DNA of 64,000 bases from Methanococcus vannielii SB (GTDB lineage: Archaea > AGJL01 > Methanococci > Methanococcales > Methanococcaceae), in the NCBI RefSeq assembly GCF_000017165.1, contig NC_009634.1:248001-312000 (forward strand), given 5' to 3'. Under the pieces are notes generated by a model. That model did no database searches, was not told the DNA's origin, and worked only from the letters and a program-made list of their open reading frames with translations. The translations under genes and the position numbers were made by a program. Shown here in pieces: positions 14,748 to 30,610 of this stretch. The number at the start of each line of letters is the position of its first letter. The first letter of the stretch is position 1.

Positions 14748-17700
14748 GAGTTTATGTCTGTTCTAATGCATTATGCTCTTTTACCCATTAAGGAAGTTGC
14801 ACAGGCTGTCGACTCAATAGGTTTCAATGCTTGTTCTAATGCATTATGCTCTTTTACCCAATGAAGCAAGTACTAATGAGTCGTATTATACAAGTTTCAA
14901 TGCTTGTTCTAATGCATTATGCTCTTTTACCTATCTAATATCCTATTATGTAATGGCTCGCACTCGTGTTTCAATGCTTGTTCTAATGCATTATGCTCTT
15001 TTACCAGAATCGTAAGTACCTAAATTTATAGTTCCATCAGTTTCAATGCTTGTTCTAATGCATTATGCTCTTTTACTGTTACGCCGTTTGCGGTTCCAAA
15101 ATCAGATATTTGTTTCAATGCTTGTTCTAATGCATTATGCTCTTTTACTTCTATAGGTGTTCGTTGAAAGTTCCGTAATGTCTGGTTTCAATGCTTGTTC
15201 TAATGCATTATGCTCTTTTACTGTCTTTTTTTCCTTGTTTCAACTGAAAGAGATACGTTTCAATGCTTGTTCTAATGCATTATGCTCTTTTACTACAATT
15301 CAGAGAACTGGTGCTTCGGGTAAGATACCGTTTCAATGCTTGTTCTAATGCATTATGCTCTTTTACCTGGCCAGGCTTATGCTATGCATATGGAGAATAT
15401 CCGAATGTTTCAATGCTTGTTCTAATGCATTATGCTCTTTTACTCCGACGATACCGGAAAAATCCAATGTATCGGCTTGTTTCAATGCTTGTTCTAATGC
15501 ATTATGCTCTTTTACCTGGAAAACACCTACTGTTAATCCTGCAAGTATGAATGTTTCAATGCTTGTTCTAATGCATTATGCTCTTTTACTTCATTGTCAA
15601 CTACTTCTGCGATTCCCAAATCAGGTTTCAATGCTTGTTCTAATGCATTATGCTCTTTTACTTTATTCTACCCCAACTATTACTATAACTAGCAGAGGTT
15701 TCAATGCTTGTTCTAATGCATTATGCTCTTTTACTACGTGATGTAGTACGTGTCTGCTGCAGCGATGAATAAGTTTCAATGCTTGTTCTAATGCATTATG
15801 CTCTTTTACTTGTTGATGCAATTCCTGCCATTGACGTTCCGTGTTTCAATGCTTGTTCTAATGCATTATGCTCTTTTACCTGCTCCAAGCATGATTACTG
15901 CTACTGCGATGATTGGGTTTCAATGCTTGTTCTAATGCATTATGCTCTTTTACGTTTCTATGTGTTGGGTTGTGCCATTGTTGTAATGGTTTCAATGCTT
16001 GTTCTAATGCATTATGCTCTTTTACACCGATAATGTTTTGTACTCCTTCAACATTTTCTCTATAGTTTCAATGCTTGTTCTAATGCATTATGCTCTTTTA
16101 CTCCAGAATTGATAAACGGTATACATTAAAAACCATTAGTTTCAATGCTTGTTCTAATGCATTATGCTCTTTTACTCAATTCTTTGTCAAGATGAAATTA
16201 AAAGATTATTATACGTTTCAATGCTTGTTCTAATGCATTATGCTCTTTTACTATAGTTCTATTTTTAACACACTTTAAAAAGTGTGAGTTTCAATGCTTG
16301 TTCTAATGCATTATGCTCTTTTACTTGGAACCGGATTTTATAAATTATATGATATTAGTTTCAATGCTTGTTCTAATGCATTATGCTCTTTTACAGTTTC
16401 ATCCATCTCTTTTTGGTATATTTTCATAATTATGTTTCAATGCTTGTTCTAATGCATTATGCTCTTTTACGTTCGATATGAGGGGAACCAATCTCAAGTG
16501 TGGGATGTGTTTCAATGCTTGTTCTAATGCATTATGCTCTTTTACTCTTAAAAGATAAAGGATATGATAAAAGGGATGATAGTTTCAATGCTTGTTCTAA
16601 TGCATTATGCTCTTTTACAATCAGTAAATCAGTATCGAATATTAAGGGTTTTGGTTTCAATGCTTGTTCTAATGCATTATGCTCTTTTACTTTGTAGTTG
16701 CTATACTATCCCTCTGTTTTATTTCGTTTCAATGCTTGTTCTAATGCATTATGCTCTTTTACTCTGTCAATGTTTCTACTTCCGCTTTAAAATCAATAGT
16801 TTCAATGCTTGTTCTAATGCATTATGCTCTTTTACCATAAATTAATTTCTTCATTGGTTAGAATGCCCTCGTGTTTCAATGCTTGTTCTAATGCATTATG
16901 CTCTTTTACCAGTGAAAATCCATATGAATTGGCACAGTACTTCATGTTTCAATGCTTGTTCTAATGCATTATGCTCTTTTACTACTCCTTCAACATTCTC
17001 TCGATATAAGTCATCTTTGTTTCAATGCTTGTTCTAATGCATTATGCTCTTTTACGATACAGTCTTCACACATTGCACCACTTTCAAGTGTTGTGTTTCA
17101 ATGCTTGTTCTAATGCATTATGCTCTTTTACACCACTCCAAAAAAGATAATGATTATTTGATAATTATGTTTCAATGCTTGTTCTAATGCATTATGCTCT
17201 TTTACAAATATCACATAGGAATAATTTTACCTCCGTAGCGATGTTTCAATGCTTGTTCTAATGCATTATGCTCTTTTACAGACGAAAGATCAGTTATTCA
17301 ACTGATTTTCCACGCAGGTTTCAATGCTTGTTCTAATGCATTATGCTCTTTTACCCTTCATGTTTTTCCATTTCTTTTATTGTGAAGTGTTTCAATGCTT
17401 GTTCTAATGCATTATGCTCTTTTACTGAATCAACGTATCCTGTATCAATTTTGAGTTTAAGTTTCAATGCTTGTTCTAATGCATTATGCTCTTTTACAGT
17501 TAATTGCTGTAATTTAAACGAGTTTTTCCTTGTGTTTCAATGCTTGTTCTAATGCATTATGCTCTTTTACAAGAATAATGCAATGGCAAACATCACAGAT
17601 GAGAAATGTTTCAATGCTTGTTCTAATGCATTATGCTCTTTTACATCGAATAGTAGTTTTTTTCCGAAGTACTCACTTGGGTTTCAATGCTTGTTCTAAT

Positions 17701-20700
17701 GCATTATGCTCTTTTACAGTTCAAAAAGCAATGGCAAGAAAGAATTACAAAGCGTGTTTCAATGCTTGTTCTAATGCATTATGCTCTTTTACTCAGACAA
17801 ACTATGCCTTAACTGTCTTTTTCAGACATGTTTCAATGCTTGTTCTAATGCATTATGCTCTTTTACCTGAACTTCTAGTTCTTGAAAATCTACATATTCG
17901 GAGTTTCAATGCTTGTTCTAATGCATTATGCTCTTTTACTTATCGGTTCAAAGTGTAACTGTTGAAGCAGGATAGTTTCAATGCTTGTTCTAATGCATTA
18001 TGCTCTTTTACATGCCCCTTCAGTAATCTCGAATGCAAATCTTTCGACACGTTTCAATGCTTGTTCTAATGCATTATGCTCTTTTACATTTGGCCGTACT
18101 CAGTATATATAATATCTGAGTCGTGTTTCAATGCTTGTTCTAATGCATTATGCTCTTTTACCTATTTATGCAAAATAAAGATAAAAAGTTTAAAGCCATG
18201 TTTCAATGCTTGTTCTAATGCATTATGCTCTTTTACTTTTCATGTTGATCCCTCAATTAAAGTTTTCTTTATGTTTCAATGCTTGTTCTAATGCATTATG
18301 CTCTTTTACCTTAAAAGATAAAGGATATGATAAAAGGGACTACAGTTTCAATGCTTGTTCTAATGCATTATGCTCTTTTACTACTATTTAGTATCCCTTA
18401 AAAAACTAGTATCATATGACTGTTTCAATGCTTGTTCTAATGCATTATGCTCTTTTACAAATATTACAGAAGCTCAGCACATAGAATCCATATGTTTCAA
18501 TGCTTGTTCTAATGCATTATGCTCTTTTACTACCAAGATATTATTTGCACAGTAGGTAACCGGAAAAGTTTCAATGCTTGTTCTAATGCATTATGCTCTT
18601 TTACTCTATATCTTTTGCTAAAATATTAATTTGATATGCTCGTTTCAATGCTTGTTCTAATGCATTATGCTCTTTTACAACAAACCTAGAGGGTGCAGAC
18701 CTTAGGGGGGCTGACTGTTTCAATGCTTGTTCTAATGCATTATGCTCTTTTACTATTTTACAATTTATAATATGTGAATATTACTATAGTTTCAATGCTT
18801 GTTCTAATGCATTATGCTCTTTTACTTTTTCACAATTTAGCAATATTTATTAAAGTTTTCTTGTTTCAATGCTTGTTCTAATGCATTATGCTCTTTTACA
18901 GAAGAGGAGCTAGAGATGGTGACTCAACCGTTATTCTGTTTCAATGCTTGTTCTAATGCATTATGCTCTTTTACTTTACTTATTATTGATTGAAAGGGGG
19001 CGATAATGACGTTTCAATGCTTGTTCTAATGCATTATGCTCTTTTACCCTATTTTAATTGTAGTTAAAAAATCAATTAAAATGTTTCAATGCTTGTTCTA
19101 ATGCATTATGCTCTTTTACAGATGTGGAAATGGTAGAAATTATTGAAGAAGAAGCGTTTCAATGCTTGTTCTAATGCATTATGCTCTTTTACCCAACTCG
19201 GCTGTTGCTTACTATGGGAAAAAAGTTAGTTTCAATGCTTGTTCTAATGCATTATGCTCTTTTACACGATAACGAGACTGTTGAAGTAGACCCAACTCTT
19301 GGTTTCAATGCTTGTTCTAATGCATTATGCTCTTTTACCTTTGTTCGATTGTTACAGGTCCATAGTTTTTTTTAGTTTCAATGCTTGTTCTAATGCATTA
19401 TGCTCTTTTACAATTATTCACACGACATAATAGACCAATAATTTGTGTTTCAATGCTTGTTCTAATGCATTATGCTCTTTTACCTCAGATTTTTCAAATT
19501 TTTTCGAGGTATGGTATTATAGTTTCAATGCTTGTTCTAATGCATTATGCTCTTTTACAATCGATTATTCAGAACTAATACGTTCTCTATATAGTTTCAA
19601 TGCTTGTTCTAATGCATTATGCTCTTTTACTCGTTGTTTGTGAGTTCTTGCATAATATAACACCTTGTTTCAATGCTTGTTCTAATGCATTATGCTCTTT
19701 TACTTTTGAATATGGTAAAAACATGTCTTAATTATGATGATAGTTTCAATGCTTGTTCTAATGCATTATGCTCTTTTACAAGATCACCGGGTCGGGACCC
19801 AGATTTATCTTAAGTTTCAATGCTTGTTCTAATGCATTATGCTCTTTTACATTTAACAAAAATAGTGAGAACATGAACGATATTGAGTTTCAATGCTTGT
19901 TCTAATGCATTATGCTCTTTTACTGATTCTAATTCACCATTATGTAAGCTACCGGATTCGTTTCAATGCTTGTTCTAATGCATTATGCTCTTTTACTCCA
20001 ATTCCTGAAGGTCATGATCTGGATCAGGACTTGAGTTTCAATGCTTGTTCTAATGCATTATGCTCTTTTACTAGATCACTATGCTGGAAAAAAAGCAACT
20101 GAAATAATGTTTCAATGCTTGTTCTAATGCATTATGCTCTTTTACTTGAAAAAATACTTACTGAATTGTCGATTAATGGTGAAATGTTTCAATGCTTGTT
20201 CTAATGCATTATGCTCTTTTACACTGTAAGGAATTCTGATAAATTTATTCATTCCAGCAGTTTCAATGCTTGTTCTAATGCATTATGCTCTTTTACATCA
20301 CTAATCTCGTCGACAACCACACATTTTAAGTTGTTTCAATGCTTGTTCTAATGCATTATGCTCTTTTACATTGACTCTTTTAATTTGATTTCAGGTGCTA
20401 AGTCAATACGGTTTCAATGCTTGTTCTAATGCATTATGCTCTTTTACTTCTATTATTGTTTTTTCGTCGTTAGGATTTCGTCTGTTTCAATGCTTGTTCT
20501 AATGCATTATGCTCTTTTACCCAAAATGTTTTTTTACGATATCTCTAATTGAGTTTCAATGCTTGTTCTAATGCATTATGCTCTTTTACCGCTTTTAATT
20601 TATATGGTGAAAACAATTTTAAATTGTTTCAATGCTTGTTCTAATGCATTATGCTCTTTTACATTATTTTATAATAATATATTATCTATTATACTAGTTT

Positions 20701-22115
20701 CAATGCTTGTTCTAATGCATTATGCTCTTTTACAAAAACAATTCGATAAAATACATTATGAAATAATAAGGTTTCAATGCTTGTTCTAATGCATTATGCT
20801 CTTTTACTACTAAAAGATAAAGGATATGATAAAAGGGATTACAGTTTCAATGCTTGTTCTAATGCATTATGCTCTTTTACATCACTTTTTTATTATTTCT
20901 ATTTTCGATAGAATATTGTTTCAATGCTTGTTCTAATGCATTATGCTCTTTTACTACTACAAAGGATAGAAGACTATTATATAATTGAAGTTTCAATGCT
21001 TGTTCTAATGCATTATGCTCTTTTACAGTGAGAATACATAAAAACAATCAAAAAGAAGGGAGTTTCAATGCTTGTTCTAATGCATTATGCTCTTTTACTT
21101 CATTGTCAACTACTTCTGCGATTCCCAAATCAGGTTTCAATGCTTGTTCTAATGCATTATGCTCTTTTACTTTATTCTACCCCAACTATTACTATAACTA
21201 GCAGAGGTTTCAATGCTTGTTCTAATGCATTATGCTCTTTTACAGTGAGAATACATAAAAACAATCAAAAAGAAGGGAGTTTCAATGCTTGTTCTAATGC
21301 ATTATGCTCTTTTACTTGTTGATGCAATTCCTGCCATTGACGTTCCGTGTTTCAATGCTTGTTCTAATGCATTATGCTCTTTTACCTGCTCCAAGCATGA
21401 TTACTGCTACTGCGATGATTGGGTTTCAATGCTTGTTCTAATGCATTATGCTCTTTTACGTTGTATGTGATGCCTTCCCCTCCCGACTGAACGTGTTTCA
21501 ATGCTTGTTCTAATGCATTATGCTCTTTTACCGATATATAATATTATATTATAATATCGGGTCAAAAGTTTCAATGCTTGTTCTAATGCATTATGCTCTT
21601 TTACTATCCTGTCTTTGTATTTCATTTGTTGAATTAATACGTTTCAATGCTTGTTCTAATGCATTATGCTCTTTTACTTTCAATTTTTGCATTTTCTTCA
21701 AGATAGTTAATGGTTTCAATGCTTGTTCTAATGCATTATGCTCTTTTACATTACTTACTATATATAGTTATCTACACTAAGTAGTTTCAATGCTTGTTCT
21801 AATGCATTATGCTCTTTTACGGCCGAAAAATTTAACTTTTAATAACTGCATATCTGTTTCAATGCTTGTTCTAATGCATTATGCTCTTTTACGAAACGAT
21901 TGGAGTTAATATGTAAGATTTTGAGTATGTTTCAATGCTTGTTCTAATGCATTATGCTCTTTTACACAGGTAATCAAAAGTAATTTGGGGGCAACTGCGT
22001 TATACGTTTCAATGCTTGTTCTAATGCATTATGCTCTTTTACGACTATTTTTTTATAAAAGCATAACTATATATATGAGTTTCAATGCTTGTTCTAATGC
22101 ATTATGCTCTTTTAC
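14748..22115 (-). CRISPR. type I-B CRISPR array, about 101 repeats
   Basis: A 37-bp repeat (plus strand: GTTTCAATGC at the start, CTCTTTTAC at the end) occurs about 101 times by hand count, with unique spacers mostly of 33-39 bp. The repeats look identical except the one at 14748-14784, which has about seven mismatches in its first 13 bases; such decay marks the leader-distal end. The transcript therefore runs on the minus strand from the AT-rich leader at 22116-22467, next to cas4. In that direction the repeat ends ATTGAAAC, the 8-nt tag I recall for crRNAs made by M. maripaludis Cas6b. A central TAATGCATTA palindrome gives a small stem. A spacer block near 15590-15916 recurs at 21099-21422. 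Confidence 0.97.
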
Positions 22116-22467
22116 AGATGATGTAAAATTCAAAGCATAATTTGCAATGTAACTTATTAAATTCCCACGTATAAATATGTTTCGAACCATTTTATCAACA
22201 AAAATTATTGATAAGTAATATACATTTATTTTGTAATTTAGGCACATAATAAAAGGTTATAATTAAATATGCACTTGGGTAACTAAATATTTTTAAATTA
22301 AATAATTATTATTTTGTTAATTTACTAACTTGTACTTTTTATAAATTTAAAATGTTAAAATACCTTTTTAAAGATTTATTTTTAAGTATTACGTATTTTT
22401 AAGAATTTTTTAGATACCAATGTTAAAAAATAAGCTCAAATTAAAGTTTATAATTTTTAAGGAACAA
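22116..22467 (-). promoter_or_regulatory. CRISPR leader and array promoter
   Basis: This 352-base AT-rich, gene-free stretch separates cas4 from the intact end of the array. On the minus strand CATATTTATACG (about 22168-22179) is a TATA-like element that would start transcription some 30 bases before the first repeat. It is therefore the likely leader, where new spacers are inserted and pre-crRNA transcription begins. A short frame running from here into the array encodes repeat sequence and is not a gene. Confidence 0.7.
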
Positions 22468-23097
22468 TTATTTTACACAAATATTTTTATAACAACAATC
22501 AATACATTTTAATTTATTTGACGCTGATTTTGGGTAATGTCCAGACATTACTTTTTTAAACTCCTCTAAATATTTATTCAGCTTATTTATTTCTTTTATA
22601 TTCACTTCTATTTCTTTTAAGACATTTTTTCCACGACAATATAATATATATCCTTGTGTAACTTCTGCATTAAAAGTTTCAGCTATCATTAAAGAGTACA
22701 TTATAGTTTGCATTTTATATGTTTTATATATTATGTCATTGTACTCAGCAAATTTGTAATCGAGTGAAGCCATGGTTCCGTTTGAAAGTGTTAAAACTTC
22801 ATCGGCAATCCCTTTAATACCATAGTTTTTCGAAACCATTGAAACGTTTATTTTTTTGTCAACCACGTTTATTTTTTTACGTAAGTAGTTCGCATTTTCT
22901 AACTCCTTTTTTTCATGAATTGTTCTACCCTTTAAAACTTTGTACCGTTTTTCTTCATGCTGGCTTATTCCCAAATAATTCATAAAGTAGGTATATCGTT
23001 TACAATACAAAAATTCAAGCATTTCTGAAGGAGTTATGTAATATTCATTTTCATTGAATCCTTCAAAATTATTAAAAGAATTTTGAGACGATTTCAT
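22468..23097 (-). CDS. cas4: CRISPR-associated exonuclease Cas4
   Basis: Cas4 is a RecB-family nuclease with an iron-sulfur cluster that trims prespacers and helps choose PAM and orientation during adaptation. The 209-residue protein has ITPSEMLEFLYCKRYTYF at the N-terminus (first cluster cysteine), the RecB-like nuclease core with GIADEV and SLDYKF, and the C-terminal cysteines CIDCCYKNIC. I chose the ATG at 23097, which overlaps the end of cas2 by 26 bases; a longer start at 23130 is possible, but its extra residues (MAKRLIKSWYL) do not look like the family. It is the last gene of cas1-cas2-cas4, next to the leader. Confidence 0.92.
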   Translation of the reverse strand: MKSSQNSFNNFEGFNENEYYITPSEMLEFLYCKRYTYFMNYLGISQHEEKRYKVLKGRTIHEKKELENANYLRKKINVVDKKINVSMVSKNYGIKGIADEVLTLSNGTMASLDYKFAEYNDIIYKTYKMQTIMYSLMIAETFNAEVTQGYILYCRGKNVLKEIEVNIKEINKLNKYLEEFKKVMSGHYPKSASNKLKCIDCCYKNICVK

Positions 23098-23362
23098 CAG
23101 ATACCAACTCTTTATCAAACGCTTGGCCAATTAATCCTGCTTTATTTAATTCATCTTTACTCATTGGAAATACATAGATTGAATCAATATCTAAATTAAT
23201 AGTATCCTCTAAGATAATTTTTAATTCATCAAGAGCATTGCTATTTACGTCCCCTAAAAATACGCTTTTTTGAACGCGGTATAATCCATAGTTTAAACAT
23301 GTCTTTGAAACTTTGCTTCTTATTTTATCATCTGAAATATCGTAAATTACCCATAAAAGCAT
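23072..23362 (-). CDS. cas2: CRISPR-associated protein Cas2
   Basis: Cas2 is the small ferredoxin-like dimer at the centre of the Cas1-Cas2 spacer-integration complex. The 96-residue protein begins MLLWVIYDISDDKIRSKV, where the conserved Asp follows the first strand, then has GLYRVQKSVFLGDV and DSIYVFPM. I chose the ATG at 23362 because GGTGAT lies directly upstream; an ATG four codons earlier is within that ribosome binding site region. It starts 4 bases after the end of cas1 and overlaps cas4. Confidence 0.95.
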   Translation of the reverse strand: MLLWVIYDISDDKIRSKVSKTCLNYGLYRVQKSVFLGDVNSNALDELKIILEDTINLDIDSIYVFPMSKDELNKAGLIGQAFDKELVSDEIVSKFF

Positions 23363-23366
23363 ATGA

Positions 23367-24347
23367 TCACCCATTTAAAATCCTGTTTGCAATATTATGG
23401 CATTCTAATTGGATTATATTTTGAATTTCCATATTTTTTCCGCGATATTTTTCCTTACTCTCAATTAATAGGTTGTATTCTGAAATTAACGCTTGTTTTC
23501 CATCTTTTGCTAAATAAAATCCCCCTTCAATTTCTTCAAAAAAGTTATCTTTTATCTTTTTTGTTGAAAACATTTTAAAAATGATTTTGTCAATATATAT
23601 TCGATATTTTTCAATTAAATCAAAAGTAAACGCTTTTCTATTGTAATTATCAACATGCAAAATGCCGATATATGGGTCAAGTCCGGAAATTATACATGAA
23701 CGTTCAATTTGGGAATAAAGTATTCCATAGCCGTAGTTTAACATGCAGTTAAAGTAATCCTCTGCAGGATTTCTACTTCTTTTGTTAAATTGATATTTTT
23801 CAGGTAAACTTTTTGAAATCATTTCAAAATATAGTCTACTTGAATAACCCTCATAACCTTGAATCGTATTTCTTATTTCATCAATATTTTGTTCGAATGT
23901 TAATGAATTTAACTTATTTTTCCTTTCATCCATTTTTAGGATACTTTCATTAATCAAATCTCTTCTTTCATCTCTTCGGTTCATAGCAATTATTTTTAAA
24001 AAATCAGTCTGATTTTCTATTTTTTTAGAAATCCATTCTTTTACAAGTGTTAATCCAAGTTCATTTTCAGAAAGCAAAAGTTGTTTTTTTCTAATTGTGG
24101 AAATACTCCCGTGCTTTGAATGCCAAAATCTACCTACGGGTTTTCCATTCATTTTTAAGAGTACTAAATCAATATTTTCTTCAACTGCCAAGGATATTGC
24201 CTCAGTAGATATGGAAGAAGGGCAAGTAATTAAAATTTGTTCTACCTTTTTTGCAGGGATTTCCTGAACATTTTCGCCATTTTTTAATTTAAAGCGAGTT
24301 CCTGATTTTGATATATATGTTCCAGGGGTGTTGATAATTAGTTTTAT
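23367..24347 (-). CDS. cas1: CRISPR integrase Cas1, apparent AUA start codon
   Basis: Cas1 is the metal-dependent integrase that inserts new spacers. With the start used here the protein has 326 residues, the normal length: N-terminal KLIINTPGTYISKSGTRFKL beta domain, GRFWHSKHGSISTIRKKQLL linking to the helical domain, and NRRDERRDLINESILKM and GYEGYSSRLYFEMI (conserved Glu), NPAEDYFNCMLNYGYGIL, and GLDPYIGILHVDNYNRKAFTFDLIEKYR (conserved His and Asp-Glu-like region). No ATG, GTG or TTG lies in frame at the right place; ATA at 24345-24347 directly follows GGAGGGG with ideal spacing. The next possible start, TTG at 24191, would remove 52 residues including the whole first sheet. Confidence 0.88.
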   Translation of the reverse strand: MKLIINTPGTYISKSGTRFKLKNGENVQEIPAKKVEQILITCPSSISTEAISLAVEENIDLVLLKMNGKPVGRFWHSKHGSISTIRKKQLLLSENELGLTLVKEWISKKIENQTDFLKIIAMNRRDERRDLINESILKMDERKNKLNSLTFEQNIDEIRNTIQGYEGYSSRLYFEMISKSLPEKYQFNKRSRNPAEDYFNCMLNYGYGILYSQIERSCIISGLDPYIGILHVDNYNRKAFTFDLIEKYRIYIDKIIFKMFSTKKIKDNFFEEIEGGFYLAKDGKQALISEYNLLIESKEKYRGKNMEIQNIIQLECHNIANRILNG

Positions 24348-24425
24348 AGTATCCCCTCCAATTAAAACCGATAATATTATATTGTTAAAACTAAATAATA
24401 TATCTTGTTTATACGGGGGTTCAGT
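24348..24425. promoter_or_regulatory. divergent promoter region between cas1 and cas8b
   Basis: The 78 bases between the two cas operons hold the cas1 ribosome binding site (GGAGGGG read on the minus strand) and the cas8b one (GGGGG at 24415-24419). The AT-rich middle (TAATATTATATTG, AATAATATATC) can supply TATA boxes for both directions. Confidence 0.55.
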
Positions 24426-26105
24426 ATGATAGATATTATTTCAAACATTGGAAAATTTTCAAGAAATAATCATGGTGAAAAAGAACTAATAGATATTTGG
24501 CAAAAACCGGAAAAAGATTTTGATTCAATTTTAGAAGTTGATATTGACACAAAAAATAACAGCATCAATGTCATATCTAAAGAATTTGATAAACGTGTTT
24601 TTCGGGATTCGTTATTTTATCAAGTTGGAAACGGGCACGTTGGTTCACTCGTTAAAATAGAGAAATTTAAAGATGATCAAAAAGTCATTGAAAAAATTAA
24701 CAAAAAAATAGAGAGTTCATTGAAGTTTTTAAGCATAAAAACTGAATTTGTGAAAAACATATCCGAAAAAGTTTTTGAAAAAGTAAGAATAGCACCTTCA
24801 AAGGCATATATTGTTAGTTTTTTAAAAGATGGAAAAAAACCCATAGATCTTTTTTTAGATAAATTTAACAATGAAATAGAAAAGACGTACTTAAATAAAA
24901 CTAAATTTACTAAAGAGTGCCACATATGTGGTAAATCTGAAATTATATATGATACAGCCATTTATAATTGTTATACTAACGATAAAGAGATTTATTCAAA
25001 TACTAAAGGTTTCTCATTTGGTATTTGTAAAGAGTGTCTTTTAAATATACTTCACGGGCGTGATTATACGAGAGATTATCTATCTACATATTGGGCAGAT
25101 AGTGAAGTAATGATTTTGCCACATAACTACGATAACGATATCGACGAAATTTTTAAGGGCGAAAATATCGGTTCAACACATTCAGAATCAAAACTTATAA
25201 ACAAACTCAAATCAGCCGAAGAAGAAATATTTGAAGAATTCGGAAGACTTAATGAACCTGTAGATATAGTTTTTTTTGAAGATCCAAAAGCAAGTTCTGA
25301 ATGGAAAATAATTTACCATATACGAGGAATTTTACCTTCTCGATTTAAATTAATATCTGATTTAGAGAAAAAATATTCTTCAGAAAATCATAATTTTAGA
25401 CTTAGGGATATTTTGAACATTTTAGCAGGGGGAACTTCTTCAAACGAATCGAAAAGACTTTTAAATATGATATTTCATGGTAAAAAATACAGTAGAAGTC
25501 TTTTTTTTAATAAAGTACTTAAAAGCTACCAAAAAAATCATTTTAGTCAGAAAAAAATACCTGACTGGAGGTTTATGGCCAATATTCATTCCGTTTATAA
25601 TTTTTTGGTAGATTGCAACTGTTTGAATAAAGGTTGGAATTTTAAATCAAAAAATAATGGGGGAGGTTATGAAATGACAGTATATGCTACAATAGACGAA
25701 TTTTTTGAAAAAAATAATGAATTTTTTGATACAAACCAAAAGAAAGCATGGTTTTTAATTGGAAATGTTTATTCAAGCTTGATTTATTATTCAAAAAAAT
25801 ATCATGATTCGAATGTATCTTACCTTGAAAAAAACTTCTTTTTTGGTAAAAAATATGATTATAAAACATTTATTTACTTTACAAATAAGTGTTCTGACCT
25901 AATTATTAAATATAAAAGTGGAGGGGCATTAAATTCAGGATATTCTTTAAATTCACTACTTATAATGGCTAAAGAATATATTGGTACGGGAAAAAATTTA
26001 CCTACTGCTGATGAAGCCAAATATATATTTTTTTGGGGTATGCAACAACGTATTGGTAAAAAAGAAAAAAATGAAGATACATTAACCAATGAGGGTGAAC
26101 AATAA
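24426..26105 (+). CDS. cas8b: type I-B Cascade large subunit Cas8b (Csh1-like)
   Basis: The 559-residue protein is the large subunit of the type I-B interference complex, expected to recognise the PAM and position the complex for Cas3. Family evidence: location directly before cas7-cas5-cas3, length, and a zinc-finger-like module of two CxxC pairs, ECHICGKSE (about residues 166-174) and GICKECLLNILHGRDY (about 204-219), typical of Cas8b/Csh1. The rest diverges fast, as in all Cas8 proteins. GGGGG at 24415-24419 fixes the ATG at 24426. Its stop overlaps the ATG of cas7 (TAATG). Confidence 0.85.
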   Translation: MIDIISNIGKFSRNNHGEKELIDIWQKPEKDFDSILEVDIDTKNNSINVISKEFDKRVFRDSLFYQVGNGHVGSLVKIEKFKDDQKVIEKINKKIESSLKFLSIKTEFVKNISEKVFEKVRIAPSKAYIVSFLKDGKKPIDLFLDKFNNEIEKTYLNKTKFTKECHICGKSEIIYDTAIYNCYTNDKEIYSNTKGFSFGICKECLLNILHGRDYTRDYLSTYWADSEVMILPHNYDNDIDEIFKGENIGSTHSESKLINKLKSAEEEIFEEFGRLNEPVDIVFFEDPKASSEWKIIYHIRGILPSRFKLISDLEKKYSSENHNFRLRDILNILAGGTSSNESKRLLNMIFHGKKYSRSLFFNKVLKSYQKNHFSQKKIPDWRFMANIHSVYNFLVDCNCLNKGWNFKSKNNGGGYEMTVYATIDEFFEKNNEFFDTNQKKAWFLIGNVYSSLIYYSKKYHDSNVSYLEKNFFFGKKYDYKTFIYFTNKCSDLIIKYKSGGALNSGYSLNSLLIMAKEYIGTGKNLPTADEAKYIFFWGMQQRIGKKEKNEDTLTNEGEQ

Positions 26106-26980
26106 TGGTAAATTCAAGAGAATTTTTATTAATATGGGATAGTACAATGGCAAATCCAAATGGTGATATGTTAAATGATAATAAACCAAGACAGGATGAA
26201 GCCACAGGGCAACTTGAGGTTTCTGATGTTAGGATAAAAAGATTTATTCGTGACCACTGGATTTCGAATGGAAAAAATGTGCTTGTACAGACAAAAACTG
26301 ACAAAAATGGAAAAGTAATGACTTGTCAAGGAATTGTTAAAGAAATGGCATCAGAAAATAACTTAAAAGACGAAGAAATTCCAAATTATCTTTTGGAAAA
26401 GTATATCGATGTAAAACTGTTTGGTGCAGTAATTACAAAGCCAAAATATGATATCACAGGCCCCCTTCAAATTGCATGGAGCAAATCCGTTCACGAAGCA
26501 GATGTAAAATTCATGCAAGGAAATGCAGCATATGCAAGTGGCGAAGGAAAAGATCAGGCATCCATATGGTCTAAATTTATTTCACCTTACGCACTTTTTA
26601 AAACATATGCAGTCTACAATGACAAAGTTGCAGAAAAACAAGGAATAAATGTTTCAGATGATGATTTAAACGATTTTAAAGATGCATTACTTAATGGACT
26701 GAAAAATTACCGGAGTACCTCAAAAAATCAGATGCCTAGACTGTTAATTGAAGTAATTTATAATAATAACAAGTTAGATGGGGAATTAAATTACGTTGAT
26801 ATTACTTATGAAAATCAGGACCTTGAATTAAGGGATATTTCGCAAGTTGTTATTAATTTGGGTAAACTTTCAGAATATGCTCTTGAAAAGTCAGCAAGTA
26901 TTGAAAAAATTATAATTTATAAACATAAGAATGTTAACTTAATAAATGTGCCAGAAAATGCTGAAGAAAACTTAATTTAA
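26105..26980 (+). CDS. cas7: Cascade backbone subunit Cas7 (Csh2 family)
   Basis: Cas7 forms the helical backbone that coats the crRNA spacer. The 291-residue protein has the Csh2-type N-terminus REFLLIWDSTMANPNGDML and VSDVRIKRFIRDHW, then ITGPLQIAWSKSVHEADV and a segment GNAAYASGEGKDQASIWSKFISPYALF. Its ATG shares a base with the cas8b stop, so the two are translationally coupled; cas5 follows after 9 bases. Length and order are standard for type I-B. Confidence 0.95.
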   Translation: MVNSREFLLIWDSTMANPNGDMLNDNKPRQDEATGQLEVSDVRIKRFIRDHWISNGKNVLVQTKTDKNGKVMTCQGIVKEMASENNLKDEEIPNYLLEKYIDVKLFGAVITKPKYDITGPLQIAWSKSVHEADVKFMQGNAAYASGEGKDQASIWSKFISPYALFKTYAVYNDKVAEKQGINVSDDDLNDFKDALLNGLKNYRSTSKNQMPRLLIEVIYNNNKLDGELNYVDITYENQDLELRDISQVVINLGKLSEYALEKSASIEKIIIYKHKNVNLINVPENAEENLI

Positions 26981-26989
26981 AGGGATATT

Positions 26990-27667
26990 ATGAAATCAGT
27001 AGTTTTTAGTGCTAAAAGTGAATATGGGCGATTTAGAAAGCCATACACAACTACATCAGCACTTACATTTCTATGTATCCATCCTGTTGCAGCAAAAGGA
27101 CTTATCGGGGCTTTGGTGGGAATTGATAAACTAGATCTTTACGAAGAGACTAAAGATTTGAAAATAGGGATAGAAGTACTTGGTGAAATAAACAAAGATT
27201 TACAATCTGTAAAACTATTAAATTTGAAAGAAGGAGTATCTGGTGGAATGTTCCATTTTCCATCAAACATTGAATTTTTAAGGTGCCCTCATTATCGATT
27301 TTATGTTATGTGGAATGAAAATAAATTAAACGAATTAAACGATAAGTTAAATGTTGGGGAATGGGAATTTACCCCGTATTTGGGCGTTAGTGAATCCATT
27401 GCTAAGATGAACTATGAAGGAATGTTCGAAGTTTCAAAAGTGGAAAAAGCAGATTTTGTAAATACAATAATTCCAACAAAAAATATACTTCCAAAAATTA
27501 ATCTCAATACAAAAATGTATTCTGATAAAATACCTGTAAAGAATAATTCAAATCGGGAATATATTGAATATGAAAAAATAGTTTTTGCTGAAAAAAACCC
27601 ATTATTTGGGAAAATCAGCAACACGGATATTTACCAAGTCGGTGAAAGAAATGTCTATTTCTTTTAA
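26990..27667 (+). CDS. cas5: Cascade subunit Cas5 (Cas5h type)
   Basis: Cas5 binds the 5' tag of the crRNA and contacts the large subunit. The 225-residue protein shows the Cas5 start VVFSAKSEYGRFRKPYTTTSALTF, then IHPVAAKGLIGALVG, the first RAMP strand-helix with the glycine-containing turn. The C-terminal half (YEKIVFAEKNPLFGKISN) is family-like. An ATG with AAAGGG just before it starts the gene. The 3' end overlaps the first codons of cas3 by 17 bases. Confidence 0.92.
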   Translation: MKSVVFSAKSEYGRFRKPYTTTSALTFLCIHPVAAKGLIGALVGIDKLDLYEETKDLKIGIEVLGEINKDLQSVKLLNLKEGVSGGMFHFPSNIEFLRCPHYRFYVMWNENKLNELNDKLNVGEWEFTPYLGVSESIAKMNYEGMFEVSKVEKADFVNTIIPTKNILPKINLNTKMYSDKIPVKNNSNREYIEYEKIVFAEKNPLFGKISNTDIYQVGERNVYFF

Positions 27668-29948
27668 TCTTTTTTCACACCCCGATCAAACTTTAAATGA
27701 CCATTTAACGGGCGTAAGAGATATTGCTTTAAATTTACATAAAAATCACAATGTTAACAAAGATTTAACGGATGTACTTGAAATAATTTGTATGGCACAT
27801 GATTTTGGAAAGGCCACTTCTTTTTTTCAAGACCGGTTAAAAACTGGAAATAAAAGTAAACTTACAGATCATGGGGAAATTTCTGCGTGTTTTGCGTACT
27901 GGTTATTGCCCGAACTTTGGAAAATACCTGGATTTTTGATAGTAAAAAGACATCACGGTAGCATGAAAAATGCAAATGATGAAATATTGCTTAATATTGA
28001 TATTTTAAAAAAACAAGCAAAAAATATCTTAGAAAATAATTTTGAAGAAGTTAATTTAATTTATTCAGAAATGCTTGAAAAAAATTCTAAATACTTAAAC
28101 GATTTTTTTGACTTTTTAAATTCATTAAATGAACGTTCTATAAAAAAACACTTTAGAAAAGAGATTTCTAATATTAAATACGATTTAGAACTTTTTATAA
28201 AAATCCAGTATATCTATTCTATTTTATTAAGTGCAGATAAATCACAGTTAATTTTAAACAAAGCATATCTTCCAAAAGTTACAATACCTTCAGAATATGT
28301 TGAAAAATATAAAGAAGATTTAAAAAAGAAATTTGTGGAAAAAATTGGAAATTTTGAAAATAATATGGTATTTAATATTAGAAACGATGCGTTTAATGAA
28401 TTAAAATATGAACTTGAGGAAGTTGATTTAAACAATAATAAAATTTTTTCAATAAATATGCCAACTGGAACTGGTAAAACAATGCTCGGATACTATTCGG
28501 CATTTAAAATACTTGAAAGGTTAAAAAACGAGCAAAATTTAAATTCTCAAATCATATACTGTCTTCCATATATGAGTATAATTGATCAAAATTATGCGGA
28601 ATTATACAAACTCCTTGAATATAATTTAAATCGGCATCCAAACGATGAGGAACTTTTAAAGTTTCATTCTATGACTGAAATAAAATATAGTGATTTTAAA
28701 GAATATGATGCAAGATTTTGCTTTGAAAACTGGCAGAGTAAGGTTGTAACAACTACGTTTGTACAGTTTTTCAATACAATATTTAAATCTGGAAAAAATT
28801 CCGTTATGCATCGGTTTCATACGCTTTCTAATTCAGTTATTATTCTTGATGAAGTTCAGGCAATTGAAACAAAGTATTTTCCCCTTATAAAGCAGTTTTT
28901 AGAGATATTGTCTAAAAATTATAATGTTTATATAATTTTAATGACTGCAACAATGCCCATACTTCTTGATACTTATGAATTAATACCAAATAATGAAAAA
29001 TACTTTAAAAGTCTAAACCGGATAAAAATAATAAATAATACGTCAAAAAATATTTCTTTAAATGAATATAAAGATATTTTACTTGAAAAAACAATTAAAA
29101 ATTCAGATAAAAGTTTTTTAATAGTAATGAATACTGTAAAGTCTGCAAAAGATGTTTATCAGTATTTAATGAAAGAAACTAATCGAAAATGTATTTATTT
29201 ATCAACAGAGATATATCCAAAATTACGACTCGAAAAAATAAATGAAATAAGAAAAATGAATAAACGTGGTGAAAAACCTGTTGTTGTATCAACACAGCTT
29301 ATAGAAGCAGGAATCGATATTGATATGGATACCGTATATAGGGATTTTTCCACACTTGATTCTATAAATCAAACTGCTGGAAGGGCAAATAGAAATGGTT
29401 TAGGGGAAAAAGGTGAAGTTTATATTTATAATATAATCGATGATAAAAAAAGGCCTTACTGTGGATATATCTATCCACATCATTTATTAGACTGCACAAA
29501 ATCCGTTCTTTTAGAAACTGAAATTAATGAAAAAGAACTTTATGAAGTTAATAATAAATATTTTAAGGAAGTTCAAAACCGTTCTTTAAATGAAATAGGT
29601 GAAAATGTCCAAAAATCAATAAAATCATTAGATTTTAAAACATTTAGGGATAATTTTGAACTTATTAAAAAAGAAGAGTGGAAAAAAGATATTTTTATAA
29701 ATGCAGACAATAATTCTGATGAAATATTAAAAAAACTTGAAAATTCAAAAGATTTTTCTAATTTGGAAATTAAAAATTTGTTTAGAGCGTTAAATAATTA
29801 TAGAATTTCGATAAATACTCAAAAATACGATAAAATAAAAAATAATCTAATATCAGTAGATAAATTCGAGTTAGAATATTTAAATATTGATAATTACTCT
29901 GTGGAAGAGGGCATACTTGATAATCTACAAAACGAAATATTTTTTTAG
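27651..29948 (+). CDS. cas3: CRISPR helicase-nuclease Cas3
   Basis: Cas3 is recruited by Cascade to unwind and shred target DNA. The 765-residue protein carries the HD nuclease first (DHLTGVRDIAL, CMAHDFGKATSFFQ, VKRHHGSMKN) and then the SF2 helicase: Walker A MPTGTGKTMLGYYS, the DEAD-box variant ILDEVQAIE, TATMP, and motifs V-VI VVSTQLIEAGIDIDMD and QTAGRANRNG. Both activities are in one chain, with all key residues present. GGTGAAAG upstream and homology choose the ATG at 27651, overlapping the end of cas5. cas6 follows after 8 bases. Confidence 0.96.
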   Translation: MSISFNLFSHPDQTLNDHLTGVRDIALNLHKNHNVNKDLTDVLEIICMAHDFGKATSFFQDRLKTGNKSKLTDHGEISACFAYWLLPELWKIPGFLIVKRHHGSMKNANDEILLNIDILKKQAKNILENNFEEVNLIYSEMLEKNSKYLNDFFDFLNSLNERSIKKHFRKEISNIKYDLELFIKIQYIYSILLSADKSQLILNKAYLPKVTIPSEYVEKYKEDLKKKFVEKIGNFENNMVFNIRNDAFNELKYELEEVDLNNNKIFSINMPTGTGKTMLGYYSAFKILERLKNEQNLNSQIIYCLPYMSIIDQNYAELYKLLEYNLNRHPNDEELLKFHSMTEIKYSDFKEYDARFCFENWQSKVVTTTFVQFFNTIFKSGKNSVMHRFHTLSNSVIILDEVQAIETKYFPLIKQFLEILSKNYNVYIILMTATMPILLDTYELIPNNEKYFKSLNRIKIINNTSKNISLNEYKDILLEKTIKNSDKSFLIVMNTVKSAKDVYQYLMKETNRKCIYLSTEIYPKLRLEKINEIRKMNKRGEKPVVVSTQLIEAGIDIDMDTVYRDFSTLDSINQTAGRANRNGLGEKGEVYIYNIIDDKKRPYCGYIYPHHLLDCTKSVLLETEINEKELYEVNNKYFKEVQNRSLNEIGENVQKSIKSLDFKTFRDNFELIKKEEWKKDIFINADNNSDEILKKLENSKDFSNLEIKNLFRALNNYRISINTQKYDKIKNNLISVDKFELEYLNIDNYSVEEGILDNLQNEIFF

Positions 29949-29956
29949 GCGATATC

Positions 29957-30610
29957 ATGAAATTAAGCTATTTATCAATTAATTATTATGATTTGAATCT
30001 CCCAATGAGGTATGGTTCAAAAATTAGAGGTTATTTTGCAAATAAATATCCTGAAAGTATTTTGGTTCATAACCACGATAATGAAAAGAGCGTATACAAG
30101 TACCCTTTGATACAGTATAAAATAATCGATAACATTCCAATTATAATTGGCTTAAATGAAGGTTCAAAAGAATTAATACAGAAAGGAATTCTGTTTGAAA
30201 ATTCAATAACTATTGAAGAAACAAAATACAACTTAGATAGAACCGAAATAATTTCAAAAGAAGCTTATTTCGGCACAATTGACAAAATTTTAAAATACCA
30301 ATTTAAAACACCTTGGATGGCATTAAATAAGAAAAATGCAGAAATTTATAAAAAGTTAGATGAAATAGATCGAGAAGAACTTCTTAAAAGAATTTTAATC
30401 GGAAACATTATTTCGATGTCAAAATCACTAGGATATGATATAAAAGAAACATTGAAAATTAAGATAAATTTAAAAGAAATCCCCGTAAAGTTCAAAAATC
30501 AAGAAATGGCGGGGTTTAAGGGGGAATTTTACATTAATTTTGATATTCCCAATTATTTAGGCATTGGAAGAAACGTTTCAAGGGGATTTGGAACGGTTTT
30601 TAAACTTTAA
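29957..30610 (+). CDS. cas6: crRNA endonuclease Cas6b
   Basis: Cas6 cuts the repeat to give crRNAs with an 8-nt 5' tag. The 217-residue RAMP protein has His38 and His40 (ILVHNHD) and Tyr47, the residues I recall as catalytic in the published M. maripaludis C5 Cas6b, and ends in the glycine-rich loop YLGIGRNVSRGFGTVFKL that binds repeat RNA. Its position as the last gene after cas3 differs from many I-B loci, where cas6 comes first. The ATG at 29957 has an AGGCGAT ribosome binding site. Confidence 0.95.
   Translation: MKLSYLSINYYDLNLPMRYGSKIRGYFANKYPESILVHNHDNEKSVYKYPLIQYKIIDNIPIIIGLNEGSKELIQKGILFENSITIEETKYNLDRTEIISKEAYFGTIDKILKYQFKTPWMALNKKNAEIYKKLDEIDREELLKRILIGNIISMSKSLGYDIKETLKIKINLKEIPVKFKNQEMAGFKGEFYINFDIPNYLGIGRNVSRGFGTVFKL

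Follow-up and report, generated by a model that had tools for sequence, protein, structure and literature searches.

An ordered spacer block recurs 5.5 kb nearer the leader, with one unit exchanged, in a type I-B CRISPR array of Methanococcus vannielii

It is very probable that the type I-B CRISPR array of Methanococcus vannielii SB has undergone a real rearrangement by recombination through its identical 37-bp repeats, in which an old run of five spacers, A-B-C-D-E, was copied toward the leader and its C unit was replaced by another spacer, X. The array lies at 14748-22115 of the analysed window (64,000 nucleotides, positions 248,001 to 312,000 of contig NC_009634.1), is read on the minus strand and contains 101 repeats and 100 spacers, which we index 0-99 from the low-coordinate end.

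The duplicated block and its extent

The old block (spacers 11-15, 15590-15916, minus strand) is composed of A (15590-15624), B (15662-15697), C (15735-15772), D (15810-15842) and E (15880-15916). The leader-side block (spacers 86-90, 21099-21422, minus strand) is composed of A (21099-21133), B (21171-21206), X (21244-21278), D (21316-21348) and E (21386-21422), and directly follows the first copy of X (index 85, 21027-21061, minus strand), such that the leader-side order is X-A-B-X-D-E, against A-B-C-D-E at the trailer side. Spacers 11 and 86, 12 and 87, 14 and 89, 15 and 90, and 85 and 88 are pairs with 100% sequence identity and equal length (35, 36, 33, 37 and 35 nt, respectively), while spacer 13 (C) is unique and the second copy of X occupies its place in the leader-side block. 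This is in agreement with the first-pass annotation, which had reported four spacers recurring exactly and in order, and the replacement of 15735-15772 at 21244-21278 by a copy of 21027-21061; all of its coordinates are correct.

Chance does not account for the block matches, which comprise 141 nt of spacer in four pieces of conserved order. Exact identity extends furthest over 182 bp (15553-15734 = 21062-21243) and 185 bp (15772-15956 = 21278-21462), with a further 111 bp for X (20990-21100 = 21207-21317), and these stretches stop at repeat edges, give or take at most 3 nt that are likely chance extension, so that repeat-spacer units are whole and the junctions lie inside repeats. Consecutive spacers, A-B and D-E, thus recur exactly and in the same order, as in block duplication, but the copies are 75 units (5.5 kb) apart rather than adjacent, as tandem slippage duplication would have them; this excludes a single slippage event, although not duplication through repeats in general. 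No further identical spacers beyond the A, B, D, E and X pairs were found within the array, and none of A, B, D, E and X was found outside it in the same genome, where the only hit in a search with the spacers was a weak one of 22 nt, to an AT-rich spacer. The 100 full repeats of the array are all identical, and they are the only perfect copies in this single-contig genome of 1,720,048 bases; the sole degenerate repeat is the terminal one (14748-14784, minus strand), with six mismatches at the crRNA-3' end.

Orientation of the array and direction of copying

The locus encodes a type I-B gene set. Cas4 (22468-23130, TIGR00372), cas2 (23072-23374, PF09827) and cas1 (23367-24347, TIGR00287) are on the minus strand, and the interference genes cas8b, cas7 (Csh2), cas5b, cas3 and cas6b are on the plus strand (24405-30610); a cas8b-based scan for relatives found distant ones only. 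An in-frame TGA in cas1 raised the possibility of a broken adaptation gene, which we rejected, as the frame is open to this TGA, the normal cas1 stop. The conserved cas1 N-terminus (24340-24350, minus strand) has no ATG, GTG or TTG, but starts at an ATA codon, with a GGAGGGG site followed by ATA-AAA-CTA-ATT. A same-genus cas1 homologue (L063) has ATA at the same place with a different upstream frame, which suggests that an AUA start codon is conserved. Another cas1 is present in the genome at L044 (G000:C1:116001-136000), as is a second, short array whose repeat differs (4 repeats found).

A handle at the end of the repeat, ATTGAAAC, is usual in type I systems. Here the minus-strand repeat ends 3' in ...AAGCATTGAAAC and carries ATTGAAAC at its crRNA-sense 3' end, as expected for type I-B. 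Terminal repeats are usually degenerate, with changes like those at 14748 (PMC8047081), which identifies this as the trailer end. The minus-strand cas1-cas2-cas4 genes end at 22468 and are followed by a 352-bp AT-rich, non-coding gap between cas4 and the array (22116-22467, minus strand); together with the handle and the degenerate repeat, this places the leader at the high-coordinate end, and we take the gap, by its position and orientation, to be the leader region. The old block is therefore 85-89 units from the leader and the leader-side block 10-14 units, which bears out the earlier claim that the second block is the nearer to the leader.

Copying most likely proceeded leaderward, with the trailer end as the source, because the G+C content of the block fits the trailer spacers. 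Mean spacer G+C is 0.40 at indices 0-16 and 0.30 from 17 on, with a change point between spacers 16 and 17 that none of 2000 permutations reached. Spacers A, B, D and E average 0.42, while runs of the same shape in indices 17-84 reach at most 0.38, and the log likelihood ratio for membership of the trailer set is 3.7 for the copied block and -1.4 for X. It is the composition of these four spacers, rather than phylogeny, that suggests the direction, and it provides independent support for what the first-pass annotation had asserted. Spacer 91 (21460-21494, minus strand), which adjoins the copied block, is an outlier among AT-rich neighbours with a G+C of 0.54; with a log likelihood ratio of only 0.34, there is a hint that it possibly came along with the block, which would then once have been longer. 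The composition step itself (at about 15989-16025) suggests either a changed source of captured DNA or the joining of an older array segment.

Recombination route and alternative explanations

We infer the recombination route, and the number and order of its steps, from the four new junctions that need explanation: X|A, B|X, X|D and E|91. The A-B-C-D-E run would have been copied about 75 units toward the leader with the original retained, landing directly after X, and the C unit of the copy would have been replaced by X, in the same event or later, to give X-A-B-X-D-E. The likeliest route would be that sister arrays paired unequally, or that the template switched in replication or repair, so that the block was inserted and then altered by a local exchange resembling gene conversion. 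Four steps of tandem duplication and deletion could give the same product; on that path, unequal exchange of the repeat before A with the repeat after X would put A directly after X, as is observed. One replication event with several template switches could also suffice. In a search over possible histories, the minimum was two events with block insertion and conversion, and four with tandem duplication and deletion only, while an ancestor without C yielded no path to the observed array under the allowed operations. Since the internal repeats do not differ from one another in sequence, no crossover point can be located, and the array is compatible with each of these routes. Replication slippage favours nearby repeats, and as such copying over 5.5 kb calls for a less common route. 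Identity, order and repeat-edge junctions thus support the view that the block was duplicated through repeats, although the wording of the first-pass annotation, that recombination must have done this, was too strong, and its sequence of copying followed by rearrangement is one route among several.

Import of a piece of a related strain's array (A-B-X-D-E or A-B-C-D-E-91), recombined through the repeats, would account for G+C-rich spacer 91 beside the block, since a donor block could exceed what the old copy now shows. We nevertheless regard it as unlikely: a search for sister arrays found the 37-bp repeat in no array of another species, no spacer is in common with the other genomes of the family, and a source within the genome suffices. 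An assembly error, or the merging of array variants from a mixed culture, such that the second block is absent from any one chromosome, has to be considered for 7.4 kb of identical repeats with shared stretches of up to 185 bp. This is improbable, because it needs four false junctions (the same four), each across one 37-bp repeat, which reads longer than about 110 bp would test; X-A-B-X-D-E spans about 430 bp and would fit one Sanger read. Repeat errors also more often collapse copies than create ordered new ones.

The direction of copying could also have been the reverse, with the leader-side block original and the trailer copy derived, and two-event paths exist if the leader block formerly contained C. 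However, A, B, D and E group with the trailer set by G+C, and C survives only in the trailer block; a copy made toward the old end would still require the source to have lost C. We consider this direction slightly less probable again than an assembly error. Least credible, to the point of being negligible, is that the same spacers were acquired again independently from the same viruses. One target does appear to have been sampled repeatedly in this array, as spacers 24, 48 and 82 have a common 28-nt core, but their two ends diverge, as is the case in genuine re-acquisitions, whereas the copied spacers of the block agree exactly in sequence, length and order, in line with the earlier judgement that ordered re-acquisition is very unlikely. 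Re-acquisition accounted for 1% of the duplicate candidates in a large survey (PMC11472070), in which 3.3% of 24,090 spacers were such candidates, with 86% of these being simple duplications and 5% rearrangements.

Block duplications are regularly attributed to recombination rather than to repeated uptake (PMC8047081), and the present block resembles reported repeat-mediated duplications (PMC8047081, PMC11472070) in that its spacers and their order are identical, its repeat-spacer units are intact and its junctions lie in repeats. Unlike the tandem or close copies expected of slippage, it lies about 75 units off with one unit swapped. Direct repeats also mediate changes in the archaeal arrays of Sulfolobus, where spacer-repeat regions are duplicated inside a locus and recombined from one locus to another (PMC4390879); duplication within a locus is the common feature, but in S. 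solfataricus the evidence came from a comparison of the sister strains P1 and P2 (section 4.4), whereas here it is deduced from one genome and spacer composition. We also surveyed 24 other arrays of the same order (450 spacers, a small sample in which identical spacers only were counted) and found no distant duplicated block among them. In a same-family genome (L069), four spacers are duplicated as a tandem block (6-9 = 10-13) and one further spacer singly in tandem (15 = 16); L055 has a tandem pair (14-15 = 16-17), and in L046 a single spacer at a contig edge recurs non-adjacently (0 = 11). The L069 block is likewise of four spacers with order intact, in the same order of methanogens, but its copies are adjacent and without a swapped unit. 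The X-A-B-X-D-E block is therefore the least ordinary duplication among the surveyed arrays, yet it is not new in kind.

Spacer targets and significance of the duplication

No convincing target was found for A-E or X, either with concatenated spacers against the genomes of the family and a subset of the spacers against phages and plasmids, or when viral contigs were searched for the exact cores of A, E and X and for that of the 24/48/82 group; spacer E matched E. coli phages weakly (E = 0.3), which was dismissed as chance. Spacers 24, 48 and 82 (16546-16581, 18310-18344 and 20808-20843) share the crRNA-5' boundary of their core, were acquired at different times and diverge both in the seed region (positions 2, 4 and 5) and at their 3' ends. 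In one reading frame they can be translated as LKDKGYDKRD(D/Y), some of the changes being synonymous; it looks as if one site had been re-sampled from seed-altered virus variants. Spacers 17 and 30 (16026-16064 and 16983-17018) overlap by 24 nt with two mismatches at shifted positions, and have related targets via different sites. The matches of spacers 61 (32/36) and 58 (30/35) fall in a single region of a same-genus genome (L039:14673-14702 and L040:49-68; G003:C1:1222672 and 1224035). The site matched by spacer 61 is inside a gene for a PEGA-domain membrane protein, close to a gene with T26-6p-like domains; spacer 3 weakly matches the same PEGA-domain gene (a 16-nt run, LGTYD motif). This region is probably an integrated element.

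Leader-near spacers are often more active. It is conceivable, although very doubtful, that the cell or selection re-promotes old memories by moving trailer-end spacers near the leader through long-distance recombination rather than acquisition, so that they are expressed more strongly; if so, protection against a returning virus would be renewed without a new infection. Because no target of A-E or X was found, a benefit of the copy cannot be argued. We infer neutral shuffling of memory rather than a regulated process.

The order of such an array is not a strict timeline, as a block that stands 10-14 units from the leader in fact belongs to the oldest memories. The reach of recombination in a 100-unit array can be about 5.5 kb, further than the short-range slippage that is commonly assumed, and spacer base composition can reveal the direction of a duplication without a sister strain. 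Dating spacers by position, or reading identical spacers as repeated infections, would misread this array.
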